Positions 54,053-61,599 of a stretch of DNA of 64,000 bases are shown piece by piece. Source of the stretch: Methanosarcina vacuolata Z-761 (GTDB lineage Archaea; Halobacteriota; Methanosarcinia; Methanosarcinales; Methanosarcinaceae); assembly GCF_000969905.1 (NCBI RefSeq), contig NZ_CP009520.1, positions 372,001-436,000 on the forward strand. The letters run 5' to 3'. The position numbers were made by a program, and so were the translations under genes. The notes under the pieces are model-generated. The model did no database searches, had not been told where the DNA came from, and saw only the letters and a program-made list of their open reading frames with translations. The stretch's first letter is position 1. Each line of letters starts with the position of its first letter.

Positions 54053-54633
54053 TCAGAACCTTCTCCGAAAATCAAGGGGTCACTTTGTTTGTTGCTTTAA
54101 GCAGACTAGATCAAAAATGTACTCACCATTGGGCCTAAGCGAATTCTATCTTGATAGCAATTAAATCATTTTAAAGTTATAAAAACAACTGCAAAATATC
54201 TTTATAATAATGATATTGCACAAATTATTTAAAGAAATTGTACTTTTTTTAAAAAAAGTTTGAATAGAAATAGCCTTTCAATATATAGAAAAGTGTTTTA
54301 TCCCAAAATTATTTTATCCCAAAATTATTTCGCTTTTTTAATTTCTGTTATTACAGCCATATATCGTATACAAGTGATCCATGACTTTACTCCAACTTCG
54401 ATAATGTGTATCAATCTGCAGATAAATACCACAACGGAAGAATCACAAAGAGGGGATCAAAGGGAGCAAGGTGGATTCTGACACAAATTGCTCAAGCAGC
54501 GGCAAAAAAGAATAACAGTAAGTTAAAAGAGTTTTTTAACAGGAAAAATTAGTTTTTAGTTAGACCTTTCCAGATAATTTTTCAAATCTCTGTTCTCATG
54601 ATTTTGCTTTGCTCATTGTATCTTGTCCTTCGA
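54053..54633. other. Spacer upstream of the kinase gene
   Basis: 580 bp between the kinase start and the end of the redox operon. It should hold the kinase promoter. Only a short direct repeat of TTATCCCAAAATTATTT (54299-54330) was noticed. Confidence 0.4.
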
Positions 54634-55173
54634 TTAAACCGTTTTTCCCATTTCATATGCCTGTTCCATTGCTTTTGTTTCTTTGATGTCTCCAATGTTC
54701 CAGGCACCAGTTCCATAGATAATACCCTTTTCCTTTGCTCCTTCAAGACAGGAAGTAAATCCCCGGAATCCTTCAAATGTTCTCTCCATAGCCTGCTTAC
54801 TATCGTCGGCTGCCGTCGCAATAAAATAAAAATCCTTATCGCTGATTTCCATGTAACGGGAGCAAGTGCGGTCAATTAGAGTCTTCATTTGACCGTTCAT
54901 TGTGTAGAAGTAAACCGGCGTTGCCATTACAATCGCATCTGCCGCAATCATTTTTTCCAGGATTTCTGCCATGTCGTCTTTTTGGGGGCAGCCCTCTCCC
55001 ATGTTAAAACAGGTTCCACATCCTGTGCAGTAATTGATTGTTTTATCTCTCAAAAAGATCTTTTCTGTCTGATTATCTGCTTCTTTTGCTCCAAGCATAA
55101 ACTGGTCGCACAACATGTCGGAGTTTCCGCCTTTCCTCGGGCTGGCGGATAGTATCAATACTTTTTTACTCAT
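54634..55173 (-). CDS. NAD(P)H-dependent FMN reductase / iron-sulfur flavoprotein-like
   Basis: 179 aa from ATG 55173 (TGGAG upstream). Flavodoxin-like fold: SASPRKGGNSDML phosphate loop near residue 8, then TGCGTCFNMGEGC, a cysteine group like that of methanogen iron-sulfur flavoproteins, and the FMN loop ATPVYFYTMNGQMKTLIDR. Last gene of a minus-strand group starting at 59060. Likely a cytosolic flavin/quinone or oxygen-detoxifying reductase; substrate not defined. Confidence 0.85.
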   Translation of the reverse strand: MSKKVLILSASPRKGGNSDMLCDQFMLGAKEADNQTEKIFLRDKTINYCTGCGTCFNMGEGCPQKDDMAEILEKMIAADAIVMATPVYFYTMNGQMKTLIDRTCSRYMEISDKDFYFIATAADDSKQAMERTFEGFRGFTSCLEGAKEKGIIYGTGAWNIGDIKETKAMEQAYEMGKTV

Positions 55174-55272
55174 TGAAATTATCTCCATATCTTGAGTTAT
55201 CCTGATTTCTCAAAAGATTGTATCCAGCATCCTGTTATGGATTACCACATGGATTTCTTTGTATCATTAGAC

Positions 55273-56025
55273 CTACTCGGGTATTACTTCATTCAAACAC
55301 GCAATCGCATTCAATGTCCTGGGATATCCGATATATGGCAATAGCTGCGTAACTGCGTTAAGCAATGTTTCTTTATCGTTTCCAACATTTAGATTGCCCT
55401 GTATATGCCCTTTTAACTGGGGCTCACATCCTCCCAGGGATAAAATCACAGAGAATGTCAAGAGTTCTCTTGTTTTTATATCCAGTCCTTTTCTGGTGTA
55501 GTAATCACCAAAACAGTTTGCAGATAAGTATTTTTGAATATGGATCTGGTTTGCTGGTGCTGCCTCGTACATTTTATCGATTATGTCACCAAATATTTCC
55601 TTCTGAACTTCCAGCCCGTTTTCAAATCGTGTTTCCGGTGAAGTCGTAGACTGGCCTTCTAAGGGTAGTTTTATTCCCCTGCTTTCCAGTATTTCATTTG
55701 TGGCATGGATAAAATCAAATGCTTTTGCCATCCCGACATATGGTACGGATTGATATACAATCTCTTTAACCTCGATTGGAGTCACATCGACATTGAGTGC
55801 AGCACCAAGCATTACTTTATATTCGCTTAAAGTCTGGCTTGCGATTAGAGATGCCAAGATGACCATCAATCTGGTTTTTGTATCTAAATTTCCATAACTG
55901 ATCACTTCATCAAAAGCAAAATTATCGAAAACTTCTATGAGTTCCGGATCTGTTATTTTTAGTGTTGATTTATGATTGGGAAATAATTTTTCATGGTTCT
56001 TGTTTGCTGTTTCACTGATACTCAT
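55273..56025 (-). CDS. Carboxymuconolactone decarboxylase (CMD/AhpD-like) family protein
   Basis: 250 aa with two CMD domains. The first is around LDTKTRLMVILASLIASQT and VYQSVPYVGMAKAFDF. The second is around IKTRELLTFSVILSLGGCEPQLKGH and VTQLLPYIGYPRTLNA. Only one Cys is near the usual active site, so the AhpD CxxC disulfide chemistry is probably absent. Found in many bacterial redox clusters; role here unknown. Follows the aldo/keto reductase gene in the same operon. Confidence 0.85.
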   Translation of the reverse strand: MSISETANKNHEKLFPNHKSTLKITDPELIEVFDNFAFDEVISYGNLDTKTRLMVILASLIASQTLSEYKVMLGAALNVDVTPIEVKEIVYQSVPYVGMAKAFDFIHATNEILESRGIKLPLEGQSTTSPETRFENGLEVQKEIFGDIIDKMYEAAPANQIHIQKYLSANCFGDYYTRKGLDIKTRELLTFSVILSLGGCEPQLKGHIQGNLNVGNDKETLLNAVTQLLPYIGYPRTLNAIACLNEVIPE

Positions 56026-56139: not shown

Positions 56140-57279
56140 TTATTTTGTCGGCAATCCGGGTCCGGCCTCAAATTCCGCTGACACATCTTTTAAGTACTCT
56201 GTTATCTTCAGATGCTGAGGGCATGACTTTTCACACTGTTTACAGTCTATGCAATCGCTAGCCTTGCCATGATTTGAAGTAAGGTTCAGATAATAAACAA
56301 ACTGGCTTGAGATATTATCAGTTACAGCACGCTTTGCACTATTATACAATGCAAAGTAATCAGGTATTGCAATATTCTCAGGACACCCTGCTTCACAATA
56401 TCTACAGGTTGTGCAGGGAATCGCAGTATCTTTATTTATAATATCAATTACCTGGCTGATGGTCCTGTATTCTTCCTCATTCAGAGGCTCGAAGTCTGCC
56501 ATATATGAGGTATTATCAAGGATCTGTTCCATGGTATTCATACCGCTAAGGACCATCATGACGCCTTCCTGACTGGCAGCAAATCTGATTGCCCAGGAGG
56601 CAATGGATAATTCAGGATTATATGCTTTCATCAATTCTTCTGCTTTTTCTGGAACTGATGCAAGATTTCCACCCTTGCAGGGTTCCATTACAACAATTGG
56701 CTTGTTATGTTTTCTTGCAACTTCATAGCATCTTTTTGACTGAATGCCTGGATTCTCCCAGTCAATGTAATTGATCTGTAACTGAACAAAATCCAGTTCA
56801 GGATGAGCAGTTAGAATTTCATCCAGTAATTCCGGCGTGTCATGAAAAGAGATGCCCAGATTCTTTATTTTGCCTTCTTCTTTTTTCTTCAAAGCAAAAC
56901 CAAATGTATCAAATTTGCATGCCTGCTCATAAGCACTCACACCAATATTGTGAAGCAGGTAATAATCAAAAAATTCAACACCACAATTTTCCAGTTGCTC
57001 ATTAAAAATTCTATCCTGATCTTCCACTGCTTTTAACATTCTGGGAGGAAGTTTCGTCGCAAGAGTAAATTCATCTCTGTCATGTCTTTTTACTAAAGCT
57101 TCTCTAACAGCTTCCTCGCTCTTGAATCCATGGTATGTATATGCTGTATCAAAGTAAGTAAATCCTCTTTCCAAAAATGTATCTACCAATTTGTTTAATG
57201 CTTCTGTGTCAAATGATGTCTGATCATCTTTGTCCAGAAGTGGTAATCTCATACAGCCAAAACCTAATCGTTTTGCCAT
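56140..57279 (-). CDS. Aldo/keto reductase with C-terminal 2[4Fe-4S] ferredoxin domain
   Basis: 379 aa from ATG 57279 (AAGGGGAG just upstream). The AKR barrel has GFGCMRLP, YFDTAYTYHG (catalytic Tyr region), a Lys in ATKLPPRM and His in YYLLHNIG. The C-terminal module has CTTCRYCEAGCP and CIDCKQCEKSCP, which bind two clusters. Such fusions are common in anaerobes and probably link NAD(P)H or flavin chemistry to ferredoxin. Operon member between CMD and flavodoxin genes. Confidence 0.9.
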   Translation of the reverse strand: MAKRLGFGCMRLPLLDKDDQTSFDTEALNKLVDTFLERGFTYFDTAYTYHGFKSEEAVREALVKRHDRDEFTLATKLPPRMLKAVEDQDRIFNEQLENCGVEFFDYYLLHNIGVSAYEQACKFDTFGFALKKKEEGKIKNLGISFHDTPELLDEILTAHPELDFVQLQINYIDWENPGIQSKRCYEVARKHNKPIVVMEPCKGGNLASVPEKAEELMKAYNPELSIASWAIRFAASQEGVMMVLSGMNTMEQILDNTSYMADFEPLNEEEYRTISQVIDIINKDTAIPCTTCRYCEAGCPENIAIPDYFALYNSAKRAVTDNISSQFVYYLNLTSNHGKASDCIDCKQCEKSCPQHLKITEYLKDVSAEFEAGPGLPTK

Positions 57280-57330
57280 TTTATCTCCCCTTGCTAAATG
57301 ATCCACAAATGTCCTGTGGACTCGACCAGC

Positions 57331-57870
57331 TCACAAGGTCATACTGATTTTATTCAACCAATCTGCGACATCTTTTTTCGCTGCACTTACACGAGAGCCC
57401 TGGATCGCGAGCCCCTTCAAAAGTGTTGCTTTCGGACAAAGTTTTGCAATGTCTTTTTCACTGCGGCCTAATCCGCTTCCTTCATGTGTACAAAATGGAA
57501 CAATGGTCTTTCCGGAAAAATCATATTCTTCCAGGAATGTAAACACCGGCATCGGCATCGTTCCCCACCAGTTGGGATAACCCAGGAATATCACATTATA
57601 AGGGTCCATATTTTCTACATGGCTGGAAAGCTCAGGCCTGGCATTGTCATTCAATTCTTTTTTTGCCACGTTGGTTGTTGCAGTATAATCCCTGGGATAA
57701 GACTTTACTGTATCAATACTGAAAACATCGCCTCCTGTTATTTCCCGGATCATGTCGGCTACTACTTTTGTGTTACCGACAGGCAGATTCACGATCTTTC
57801 CACTGACATAGTTATTCCCCTCACGTGAAAAACAGGCTATCAGGCATTTCTCTTCTTTTAAAGTCGCCAT
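57331..57870 (-). CDS. Flavodoxin
   Basis: 179 aa from ATG 57870, with GAGGGACAAGGA upstream; earlier starts would add 13 residues. Flavodoxin fold: CLIACFSREGNNY phosphate loop, GYPNWWGTMPMPVFTFLEEYDF FMN loop region (read as GYPNWWGTMPMPV then FTFLEEYDF), and PFCTHEGSGLG. Of the flavodoxin_4 type found in bacterial anaerobes. A one- or two-electron carrier, presumably for the reductases in the operon. Confidence 0.85.
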   Translation of the reverse strand: MATLKEEKCLIACFSREGNNYVSGKIVNLPVGNTKVVADMIREITGGDVFSIDTVKSYPRDYTATTNVAKKELNDNARPELSSHVENMDPYNVIFLGYPNWWGTMPMPVFTFLEEYDFSGKTIVPFCTHEGSGLGRSEKDIAKLCPKATLLKGLAIQGSRVSAAKKDVADWLNKISMTL

Positions 57871-57922
57871 TCCTTGTCCCTCGCCTTCTTTTTGTTTATT
57901 CATATCCAAAATTAACTACTGA

Positions 57923-58558
57923 TTATTCCCGGATGAAATTTGTATAGATGCTTTTTTCTTTCATCGGCAACTGTACGCCAGCCTTCATGCCAGCCTCCTT
58001 GCATTTCAGGAACCATGCCATATTCCTTGCAAGCACACGCATGATCTGCAATCCTTCCAGGTCTTTTTTCACATTTTCGGGTTTTGCTCCATGAACCATA
58101 TTCCAATAGCGGGAAGAAACAATAGGCATCTCCGAAATGGTGAAATACTTATTAAGCTGGTCAAGTGTGGCTGTCGTCCCTGCTCTCCTTGCGGAAACAA
58201 CTGCTGCCGCTGGTTTCAGATAAAAAGACTGTCTTCCTCCCTGCAGGTCAGCATAGAAAACGCAATCCATAAAAGACGTAATCGCACCACCCGCAGCTGC
58301 ATAATGCACCGGAGAACCGAAAATAAATCCATCTGCATCTTTGGCAATGTTAAGAAAATCGTTGACGCGGTCATTAAATGCACAGAGCCCTGTTTTGGCA
58401 CAGCTCTTGCAGGCAGTGCACCCGGTAAGAGGCTTTTTTCCGATCCAAAAAATTTCTGTGTCAATCTCTTCTTCATTCAAGGTCTTTGCTACTTCTGAAA
58501 GAGCCGTATAGGTACAGCCTTTCTCATGCGGACTTCCGTTTACTAATAATACTTTCAC
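57923..58558 (-). CDS. Flavodoxin-family NAD(P)H-dependent oxidoreductase
   Basis: 211 aa from GTG 58558 (GGTGG upstream). An ORF back to 58663 overlaps the cupin gene but lacks a ribosome site. It has VNGSPHEKGCTYTAL as phosphate loop, CTACKSCAKTGLC as a Cys cluster, and FGSPVHYAAAGGAITSFMD as FMN loop. Similar to bacterial multimeric flavodoxin WrbA-like/NADPH-dependent FMN reductases. Second gene of the operon. Confidence 0.85.
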   Translation of the reverse strand: MKVLLVNGSPHEKGCTYTALSEVAKTLNEEEIDTEIFWIGKKPLTGCTACKSCAKTGLCAFNDRVNDFLNIAKDADGFIFGSPVHYAAAGGAITSFMDCVFYADLQGGRQSFYLKPAAAVVSARRAGTTATLDQLNKYFTISEMPIVSSRYWNMVHGAKPENVKKDLEGLQIMRVLARNMAWFLKCKEAGMKAGVQLPMKEKSIYTNFIRE

Positions 58559-58640
58559 TCTTATGCCACCAATTGCATTTTTTATCTTTTTTAACTCTCT
58601 ATTCTGTTTCCAGTGATTTTTATTTTTGATAGTGATGCTA

Positions 58641-59060
58641 TCATAAATTGTTATATTCTTCATCTGTTACGGGTTCTAGCCATTCAGCAGGACCCGCATT
58701 GACATTTGTCTCTACAGAAAGGTGTATGAACCAACTGTCTGGAGCCGCTCCATGCCAGTGCTTTACATTTGGATGAATTTTTACTACATCACCAGGATTA
58801 AGTTCCTGTGCAGGCTTTCCTTCCTCCTGATAGTAACCACGTCCGCCTGTTACTAACAGGATCTGTCCGCCCGGATGCTTATGCCAGTTATTCCGACAGC
58901 CGGGTTCAAATGTCACATTGCCTATGGGACAATTAAATTCATTATCCCTGTCTACCAGCATGCTAAGCCATGCTTTACCTGAAAAATACTTGCTGAACTG
59001 TTCCGGAAGTTTTTCACCTTTCGGGAAAATTACACTTTCACTTAAGTTTGATTTGTCCAT
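58641..59060 (-). CDS. Cupin-domain protein
   Basis: 139 aa from ATG 59060, which has AAGGGGGAC upstream; the reading frame extends to 59111 without a site. Cupin motif 1 is NWHKHPGGQILLVTGGRGYY and motif 2 PGDVVKIHPNVKHWHGA, with the His/Glu metal ligands mostly present. First gene of the redox operon, about 190 bp after the operator at 59248. In bacteria such cupins are often encoded with CMD and flavodoxin-type genes. Confidence 0.88.
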   Translation of the reverse strand: MDKSNLSESVIFPKGEKLPEQFSKYFSGKAWLSMLVDRDNEFNCPIGNVTFEPGCRNNWHKHPGGQILLVTGGRGYYQEEGKPAQELNPGDVVKIHPNVKHWHGAAPDSWFIHLSVETNVNAGPAEWLEPVTDEEYNNL

Positions 59061-59247
59061 ATTTTGGTCCCCCTTTTCATTTTTCATGATGCTTAATTTC
59101 TTGAATGTCAAATATTCTTACTGAAAAGTCTACTAGCCGTGGCCTACCGTTAATACCGACAACTTTCATAATGTTCTCTCTTATTTTACTTTCATTATGA
59201 TTGTCACAATTTTCTTTCTTAATCGTTTACTCGATCAACTACATGAG

Positions 59248-59261
59248 TGACTGATCAGTCA
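59248..59261. promoter_or_regulatory. Perfect TGACTGATCAGTCA palindrome: predicted TetR operator of the redox operon
   Basis: A 14-bp perfect palindrome in the 399-bp gap between the cupin start (59060) and the MBL gene end (59460). It matches the site just before tetR (61430-61443) in 13 of 14 positions. It is the only such strong copy ahead of the six-gene operon. The rest of the gap holds no gene. Confidence 0.7.
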
Positions 59262-59459
59262 TCGTATAAGATTTAATGGTATATAAAAGTAAGCCATACA
59301 GAGAAAGGTAAAATGTAAAAAATTGAAAAATAATTTTTCAACATGCCTAGATTCTTCTCCTTCGCTCAAACCGCTTTTCTCATTCATATCCCAACTCTAT
59401 GACTTTGTTTCCTCTGATATCCCCCCATTCCAGGCATCATCTCCTTAGATAATGTTCTT

Positions 59460-60587
59460 TCAAAAATCCCACCAGGGAGTCGAAGGCATGTGTAGGTCTG
59501 AATCTAATAGAACGGTTTCACCAATTTCCGGGGCAATTATGTTTACTTCTCTTTTTTTTGCCTCCTTTTGTGCTCTTTCTATTGGTTCATTCCAACCATG
59601 ATTAGCTAATGTAAATGCTCCCCAATGCATCAACATCATGGTCTCACCATTCGCATCCAGATTAGCCTGAACAGATTGTTCCGGTACCATATGAATATCC
59701 GACCAGCTCGGATCATATTGGGCACCTTCGATCAAGGTTATATCAAAAGGTCCGTATTTATTTCCGATCTCCTTAAAATGTGGACCGTATCCACCGTCTC
59801 CACTGGTATATATTCGAGTTTTATTTCCCAGGATGACCCATCCACCCCATAGAGTAGTATCGATATTAAACGGATCTCTTCCGGAGAAATGTCTGGCTGG
59901 TGTCAAAACAACGGTTAAGCCCTGATATTCCGTTTCTTCCCACCAATTGAGTTCCGTAATTTTTTCTTTTGGAATACCCCATCGAAACAGATGAGCACTA
60001 ACTCCAAGAGGAACAAAGAAATGTGATACTTTGCTGTTTAGTTTAACAATAGATTGATAATCTAAGTGGTCATAATGGTCATGTGTGATAAAAACTGCAT
60101 CAATAGGCGGCATTTCATCAATAAGATGCAGCATAATATCTTCACTGTATTCATATCTTTTAATTCCCACAAATGAAACCGGCGAGGCAATAGGACTCAG
60201 CATAGGATCTATCAATAACTTTTTATTATCAATACTAAGCAGAAAAGCAGAGTGTCCAAACCAGGTCAGACTATCATTTTCACTTTTAATTTTGTTCCAG
60301 TCAATGGCAGAAACAGGAATTGGACCACTCGGGTTGCGGTCTTTAGCCTCTGAAGCAGAATCCTCATTCATTAATGAAGCGTCTGAGGAATTTATAACAA
60401 ACTCTGTAGGATCCTCATTAATAAATTTCCCATCAACATAATTATTTAAATGTTGATACATTTCTGTTTGTTCTTTTGTTGGATTCCCACCGAAAGCCGG
60501 GTCTATGTTTATAAACAAGATAATAAAGACACCCAATAGAAGCAAAAAACTGAGTAAATATAACCCCATTTTTTTAATCCTTTTCAT
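59460..60587 (-). CDS. Membrane-anchored metallo-beta-lactamase-fold hydrolase (NAPE-PLD/UlaG-like)
   Basis: 375 aa. An N-terminal hydrophobic segment (YLLSFLLLLGVFIILFINI) is a signal or anchor. The catalytic domain has WFGHSAFLL, the metal motif THDHYDHLDY, ARHFSGRD, and later GAQYDPSWSDIHM and MMLMHWGAFTLANH. This is the RomA/NAPE-PLD-like subgroup. Substrate unknown. It lies between the TetR gene and the redox operon on the same strand, with a weaker operator-like site at 60802. Confidence 0.85.
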   Translation of the reverse strand: MKRIKKMGLYLLSFLLLLGVFIILFINIDPAFGGNPTKEQTEMYQHLNNYVDGKFINEDPTEFVINSSDASLMNEDSASEAKDRNPSGPIPVSAIDWNKIKSENDSLTWFGHSAFLLSIDNKKLLIDPMLSPIASPVSFVGIKRYEYSEDIMLHLIDEMPPIDAVFITHDHYDHLDYQSIVKLNSKVSHFFVPLGVSAHLFRWGIPKEKITELNWWEETEYQGLTVVLTPARHFSGRDPFNIDTTLWGGWVILGNKTRIYTSGDGGYGPHFKEIGNKYGPFDITLIEGAQYDPSWSDIHMVPEQSVQANLDANGETMMLMHWGAFTLANHGWNEPIERAQKEAKKREVNIIAPEIGETVLLDSDLHMPSTPWWDF

Positions 60588-60801
60588 ATTTTCACTTCTG
60601 TAATTCCAATTTTACGCAGCCAATTGGAGATCCCATTCTGCGCTTTTTTACGTTTCTACTCAGGACTGCAAAACCATCCAGAATAGGGCAGGACGACTCT
60701 TACTGTATACACTGAGGAGTTATTATGGTACGATGGAAAGGAGATGCCTTTGATTTCCTGTTTATTTTATAGATAGTGAATATCTTAATCGAGCATATGA
60801 C

Positions 60802-60815
60802 TGACTAATCACTTT
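60802..60815. promoter_or_regulatory. Weak operator-like site upstream of the MBL gene
   Basis: TGACTAATCACTTT matches the reverse of the tetR site (TGACTAATCAGTCA) in 11 of 14 positions and overlaps an extra TGACTGACT half-site. It lies about 215 bp before the MBL start and just after the tetR stop. Confidence 0.45.
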
Positions 60816-60834
60816 AATATTGAGTGAAAAAAAA

Positions 60835-61413
60835 TTAGTTATTAGCCAGACCTTTCCAAATAATCTGGAATCCATCTTCTATAACCTTATTTTCATCCAG
60901 TGATAAATCTGAATCAATGATAAGGTTCACTACCGCCCTGCTACCCTGATAAAACATTGCAATGGTAAGCTCCGCAGAAAAATCTCTGATTTCTCCCGCT
61001 TTTATTCCTTCATCCACAAGCTTATGGAGGAATACATACTCTTTCATCACTTCATCACGTGTAAACTTTGTGATGTAAGGAGATGAACAGAACTGCCCGA
61101 CAAAAAGGAATTCTTCCTGATTTGCTACTCCCCATTTGATTAGATTTGACCATATTTTTTTTAATTTATCCTTGAAGGTATTCTGTGCCTCAATTTCTTT
61201 TCCCATACTGCGGCTTAAATCTCCTTTTACCTCAAAATACAGACTATTGATAAGGTCTTCCTTTGTAGGAAAATAGTTGAAAAGCGTGCCTGTGGCTACA
61301 CCTGCTTCTTTTGAAATCTGAGCAGTGGATGTACCGTGGAAGCCTCTTTCTGTGAAGAGCTTTAAGGCTGCTTCCAGAATGGCTGTTTTTTTGTCTTTGA
61401 CCTGTTCTTTCAT
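60835..61413 (-). CDS. TetR/AcrR-family transcriptional regulator
   Basis: 192 aa. The N-terminal HTH is standard: ILEAALKLFTERGFHGTSTAQI followed by SKEAGVATGTLFNYFPTKEDL (residues ~11-53). The C-terminal ligand domain has DEVMKEYVFLHKLVDEGIKAGE. A 14-bp palindrome lies 17 bp before the start, so self-repression is likely. The same site before the cupin operon suggests control of the redox genes; the inducer is unknown. TetR proteins of this kind are mostly bacterial. Confidence 0.9.
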   Translation of the reverse strand: MKEQVKDKKTAILEAALKLFTERGFHGTSTAQISKEAGVATGTLFNYFPTKEDLINSLYFEVKGDLSRSMGKEIEAQNTFKDKLKKIWSNLIKWGVANQEEFLFVGQFCSSPYITKFTRDEVMKEYVFLHKLVDEGIKAGEIRDFSAELTIAMFYQGSRAVVNLIIDSDLSLDENKVIEDGFQIIWKGLANN

Positions 61414-61429
61414 GTATTATCTCTATAAT

Positions 61430-61443
61430 TGACTGATTAGTCA
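61430..61443. promoter_or_regulatory. TGACTGATTAGTCA palindrome: predicted TetR autoregulatory operator
   Basis: TGACT and AGTCA half-sites separated by GATT, one base off a perfect palindrome, immediately upstream of the tetR start codon (61413). Confidence 0.7.
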
Positions 61444-61599
61444 TTTATGTTTTAATATTAAGTTATTATAAATACTTTATGGCATTTTATTCTTGGCTTT
61501 TAGCAGGTATTGCAGTACATAAGGGATTTTTGGCAACTTAAGTAAAAAATATCCAGCGATACATTTAAAAATCCGAATTGTTAATGTGTAGAGATCATC

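Follow-up and report, generated by a model that had tools for sequence, protein, structure and literature searches.

The sequence comparison indicated that the TetR-family regulator encoded in the window (the whole stretch of 64,000 nucleotides of Methanosarcina vacuolata Z-761 that was analysed) is very probably an autoregulated, RamR-like repressor, which would act through conserved palindromes, including those at a redox operon and a hydrolase-AKR operon. The initial annotation had predicted TetR control of three units, namely tetR itself, the redox operon and a gene for an MBL-fold hydrolase (MBL), and the gene positions determined here agreed with it. Control of tetR and the redox operon was well supported by the conservation and specificity of the site; control of the MBL gene is likely, with less certainty. 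The redox operon consists of six minus-strand genes running from 59111 to 54634, with the cupin gene first and a second FMN reductase gene last. The genes are as follows:

60835 to 61413, minus strand: tetR, RamR/FadR-like TetR-family regulator of 192 aa (PF00440, E 2.4e-18)
59460 to 60587, minus strand: RomA-like MBL-fold hydrolase (PF12706; 33% over 372 columns to Klebsiella variicola RomA)
58641 to 59111, minus strand: cupin (PF07883; near the NCBIfam mandelonitrile-lyase model NF049940, at 137.5 slightly under the cut-off of 140), the true start of which is probably the ATG at 59060
57923 to 58663, minus strand: NADPH-dependent FMN reductase family protein (PF03358)
57331 to 57909, minus strand: flavodoxin (Flavodoxin_4, PF12682)
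56140 to 57306, minus strand: aldo/keto reductase (AKR) with a C-terminal 4Fe-4S domain (PF00248, Fer4)
55273 to 56025, minus strand: carboxymuconolactone decarboxylase family protein with two CMD stretches (PF02627)
54634 to 55188, minus strand: NADPH-dependent FMN reductase family protein, final gene of the redox run (PF03358)

A scan of the window allowing up to three mismatches to TGACTGATCAGTCA returned three matches, at 59248-59261 (0 mismatches), 61430-61443 (1) and 60798-60811 (3). A perfect copy before the redox operon and a 13/14 copy 17 bp before tetR were both found where the initial annotation had placed them, and its statement that the window held no match beyond the three that it named was correct. 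Shuffled windows yielded 2.63 +/- 1.50 matches at this looseness, so the third, 11/14 copy was not significant by count; the two strong copies, being exact or one-mismatch 14-mers, were significant. At the redox operon, positions 59244-59247 together with the palindrome formed TGACTG-N6-CACTCA (59244-59261, minus strand). The two strong operators and their TATA boxes are as follows:

59248 to 59261, no strand assigned: predicted redox-operon operator, a perfect copy of the palindrome TGACTGATCAGTCA with 0 mismatches (motif scan)
59280 to 59287, minus strand: TATA box (TTTATATA) serving the redox operon and beginning 26 bp ahead of its operator (sequence, TATA-operator spacing)
61430 to 61443, no strand assigned: predicted operator of tetR, TGACTRATYAGTCA, 13/14 to TGACTGATCAGTCA, 17 bp before the start codon (motif scan, orthologue comparison)
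61467 to 61474, minus strand: TATA box (TATTTATA) serving tetR and beginning 31 bp ahead of its operator (sequence, TATA-operator spacing)

TetR was present in 20 of the 31 Methanosarcina genomes, and further genera with it included Methanolobus and Methanohalophilus. In Methanosarcina and these two genera, each of the 30 tetR orthologues examined carried the palindrome at most 60 bp upstream (exact to TGACTRATYAGTCA in 24 and with one mismatch in six; no shuffle matched this), and the upstream sequence was TGACTRANYAGTCA or a near form, located mostly 30 bp from the start codon. When 32 tetR-upstream sequences were aligned, with 'proximal' and 'distal' site sets chosen partly by motif resemblance, TGACT and AGTCA were invariant and most flanking columns varied. 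Exact TGACTRATYAGTCA occurred 40 times across the 31 Methanosarcina genomes, in 19/20 TetR-positive versus 0/11 TetR-negative genomes, compared with about 1.3 copies expected from base composition in the TetR-positive set; these counts are not independent, because the genomes are related and orthologous promoters have a common ancestry. According to our tally, 39 of the 40 copies could be assigned to tetR or redox/detoxification promoters: 23 before tetR, a tetR paralogue or a pseudogene, and 16 before cupin, hydrolase, AKR, Fe-ADH, DUF3737, flavodoxin-lipoprotein or MBL genes. The palindrome before the cupin gene was conserved in seven genomes, and cupin orthologues were found only together with TetR (10/20 TetR-positive versus 0/11 TetR-negative genomes). 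At the level of sequence, the operator is thus conserved, fixed in position, specific genome-wide and co-occurrent with tetR. The proposed control circuit is very likely real, because the site is nearly unchanged in dozens of relatives and even in distant bacteria, and stands at the tetR promoter and at promoters of redox and detoxification genes. Against this reading, some promoters had no site of their own; for example, the second FMN reductase gene (54634 to 55188) lacked an operator in the window, while its orthologues in G001 and G007 have one.

The remaining exact copy (G015:C40:194-231, L173) had a second palindrome close by and no recognisable target gene, and this contig may be foreign to its genome. 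Broken or split tetR copies were observed at G001 C1:421757-422328, G010 C1:1961591, G022 C303 and G024 C34, several of them with an intact palindrome upstream. The reversed TGACTRATYAGTCA was discarded as a negative control, since the frequent tetR promoter sequence ACTGACTAATCAGT includes it, so that the reversed pattern tracks TetR too.

The genome-wide motif scan proposed in the initial annotation revealed few copies and no excess of unrelated ones. The window is C2:372001-436000 of a genome of 4.56 Mb; within the 58 kb second contig of this genome, a 20 kb stretch matched a plasmid of Methanosarcina sp. Kolksee (98% identity over 62% of its length), which makes the vacuolata/Kolksee lineage the probable one. 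In the own genome, TGASTNNNNAGTCA gave five matches, of which one was intragenic and four fell at three regulon promoters: hydrolase-AKR (C2:343489 and C2:343539), cupin and tetR. The hydrolase-AKR operon, comprising an alpha/beta-hydrolase and a second 4Fe-4S AKR, is located at C2:343489-345900 (L123 9490-11882), approximately 28 kb left of the window and 88 kb from tetR. The description of the regulon as local was therefore too narrow, because this operon outside the window belongs to it. Its operators form a pair 50 bp apart, and both sites were kept in 7/7 hydrolase orthologues. As a point against the reading, one hydrolase copy with both operators was in G028, where no TetR was found, but this assembly is only 60% complete. 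Seven more own-genome sites appeared at one or two mismatches, most of them intragenic, and the two extra TGANTG-N6-CANTCA sites in this genome were both intragenic. Two intergenic two-mismatch sites mark possible targets, namely C2:3009112 (117 bp before a 495-aa ORF) and C2:2167886 (167 bp before a 306-aa ORF). Across the family, the predicted targets comprised cupin, FMN reductase, flavodoxin, AKR, Fe-ADH, Zn-ADH, dienelactone-hydrolase-like, DUF362, DUF3737 and MBL genes, and this gene set suggests that the regulon may answer reactive carbonyls, quinones or other electrophiles.

Control by TetR is less certain for the MBL gene than for the other two predicted units in the window. The 11/14 match had been placed at 60798-60811, which is 4 bp off the register obtained by alignment with the orthologues:

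60802 to 60815, minus strand: partly decayed operator between tetR and the MBL gene, AAAGTGATTAGTCA (alignment to the post-tetR operator of orthologues)

The initial annotation was thus right that an operator is marked here and wrong in its register. The site belongs to a second class with the consensus TGAGTGATYAGTCANTCA, which lies either upstream of a TATA box or about 17-24 nt past the tetR stop codon. It is possible, if less probable than control, that the reach of TetR in the window is limited to its own gene and the redox operon (with distant units in addition), and that the MBL-side site is a decayed relic. Consistent with this, the window copy no longer has the two leading bases of the consensus, stands approximately 211-215 bp from the MBL start and belongs to a match class whose window count is at chance level; moreover, MBL orthologues that do not directly follow tetR had no recognisable site upstream, so that MBL control would depend on location behind tetR. 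However, the post-tetR position was conserved, with at most two mismatches at 17-24 nt past the stop codon in 27/30 orthologues versus 0.3% of shuffles, and the site was usually near-perfect there whatever gene came next. In addition, the bases past the window site, including the TATA-like CTATAAAATA, resembled by eye the post-tetR stretch of G001, in which the site is intact, and an MBL paralogue in G008 had a perfect site 113-115 bp upstream. The MBL gene is a likely, if less certain, target of TetR.

The arrangement of promoters suggested how the regulator may act. The TATA box started 25-31 bp ahead of the operator in 46/64 promoters. Archaeal TATA boxes usually lie about 25 bp from the transcription start, so the operator is predicted to cover the start. 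We infer that TetR, a member of the RamR/FadR branch that would repress its own gene, binds TGACTRATYAGTCA-type palindromes (extended form TGANTG-N6-CANTCA) over the transcription start, that the direction of control is repression and that a small compound releases it. Because the palindromes cover the start, TetR on its operator would block RNA polymerase at the tetR promoter and the redox operon. The related operator just past tetR precedes the TATA box belonging to the next unit, here MBL. Promoters with both site classes had operators 50-61 bp apart with the core promoter between them, and the alpha/beta-hydrolase-AKR operon would likewise be controlled through its bracketing pair. The gene set leads us to guess that the releasing compound may be small and hydrophobic or electrophilic, such as a reactive carbonyl or quinone. 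It is improbable that TetR is instead an activator, or a dual regulator acting through distal sites upstream of the TATA box. Several promoters do have distal operators in this location, where archaeal activators can bind, but the most conserved sites lie downstream of the TATA box over the inferred transcription start, which favours repression, and the closest characterised relatives of TetR are repressors. Within the library searched, literature on a Methanosarcina TetR of the RamR-like kind yielded nothing relevant. The repressor reading makes a concrete prediction that can be tested in the genetically tractable Methanosarcina; if true, these archaea would have a repressor of their own that responds to a ligand and whose operators are mapped, a candidate tool for controlled expression.

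To place the protein among known systems, we compared its sequence and predicted structure with those of characterised regulators. The tetR product has the N-terminal TetR_N helix-turn-helix (PF00440, above cut-off) and the all-helical ligand domain typical of the TetR family, and its C-terminal domain matched TetR_C_10. The AlphaFold model (pLDDT 90.7, nine helices) gave 3ppb, 3pas and RamR as the best structural matches by Foldseek, and the nearest solved structures by sequence were 3ppb, RamR and FadR. Klebsiella RamR is a full-length homologue with 32% identity and a near-identical recognition region (GVAxGTLFxYFxTK). Its operator, atgagtgn6cactcat (PMC4310594), has half-sites TGAGTG/CACTCA with N6, the layout of TGANTG-N6-CANTCA here, and was seen as TGAGTGAGTACGCACTCA in Klebsiella locus L208. 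The distal sites (TGAGTG-N6-CANTCA) fit this operator, whereas the proximal ones use TGACTG and a dominant 14-bp inner palindrome; this difference from RamR is seen at the start site, where the symmetric TGACTRATYAGTCA prevails. A dimer of dimers is the binding mode proposed for RamR (PMC6336783). The romA MBL gene adjoins ramR in the enterobacterial ramR-romA-ramA locus and is homologous over its length to the window MBL gene (33%); a romA-type MBL gene also adjoins tetR here, though not in every orthologue. No AraC-type regulator (ramA) was found among the neighbours or regulon genes, and we therefore call the system RamR-like rather than RamR. In contrast to RamR, no efflux targets were found, redox/aldehyde-type enzymes taking their place, and the promoter is archaeal. 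Bacillus FadR, a TetR-type regulator of similar fold, provided the best named NCBIfam model (NF053878, E 8.5e-20), the score of 71.3 bits not reaching the cut-off of 200, and no fatty-acid degradation genes were among the targets here. By description, the system also resembles Sulfolobus acidocaldarius FadR, a TetR repressor from an archaeon whose operators are semi-palindromic and whose genomic sites are few; that repressor differs in controlling a fatty-acid cluster and in binding acyl-CoA (PMC6449355). Taken together, the sequence comparisons point to a RamR-like archaeal TetR regulon. Cys109 is conserved in 28/30 archaeal TetR orthologues; it was considered as a candidate thiol sensor, and was not among the invariant columns once bacteria were included.

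Distant bacterial homologues were also informative. Three of the four nearest (Bacillales, Maritalea, Anaerolineae) had TGACTN4AGTCA before tetR, which occurred in 2/8000 shuffles. With regulators of 33-36% identity, the palindromes before bacterial tetR were TGACTGATCAGTCA, TGACTGATTAGTCA (twice) and TGACTGCTCAGTCA. It is very unlikely that another regulator binds a genuine palindrome and that tetR is a mere neighbour and target. The link between protein and site is itself predicted here, which leaves room for this reading, but the motif was absent from all 11 Methanosarcina genomes without TetR, and bacterial homologues sharing little else with the locus had the same palindrome before tetR. 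Furthermore, RamR and FadR are the closest characterised relatives, and the RamR operator shares half-sites and spacing (PMC4310594). A conserved palindrome stands where a TetR-family protein that regulates its own gene would be expected to bind. That the palindromes arose by chance is barely conceivable, as only the lack of a window excess at three mismatches speaks for it, and conservation, genome-wide specificity and phyletic co-occurrence refute it for the two strong sites (59248-59261, 61430-61443).

An operator was also found past tetR in two of the three palindrome-carrying nearest bacterial homologues, and homologues from Acinetobacter, Azospirillum, Komagataeibacter and Rhizobium had palindrome variants both before and just past tetR. 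In other genomes, the distal operators of the hydrolase and AKR genes were embedded in a duplicated tetR 3' end together with its T-tract (alignment scores 25-40 versus shuffle maxima of 19-23). The own-genome hydrolase promoter had no such remnant by alignment, and one was detected in the window:

54544 to 54610, minus strand: remnant of the tetR 3' end, 67 nt, located beyond the second FMN reductase gene that closes the redox run (local alignment 29 versus shuffle maximum 22)

It is about as likely as not that Methanosarcinaceae share a bacterial detoxification switch of the RamR-RomA type together with its operator, and that in this family the switch grew into a defence regulon of several operons through copies of the tetR 3' end and operator before new genes, giving archaeal core promoters bracketed by two operators 50-61 bp apart. 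The copied segments suggest a route by which such a regulon grows. Since methanogens have the operator in common with Bacillales, Chloroflexi and Proteobacteria, a repressor and its operator may be able to persist as a pair across domains whose promoters differ greatly. Related palindromes before tetR were also observed at bacterial loci L069, L070, L072, L204 and L206-L210, most of which had one just after tetR as well, as in Methanosarcina.
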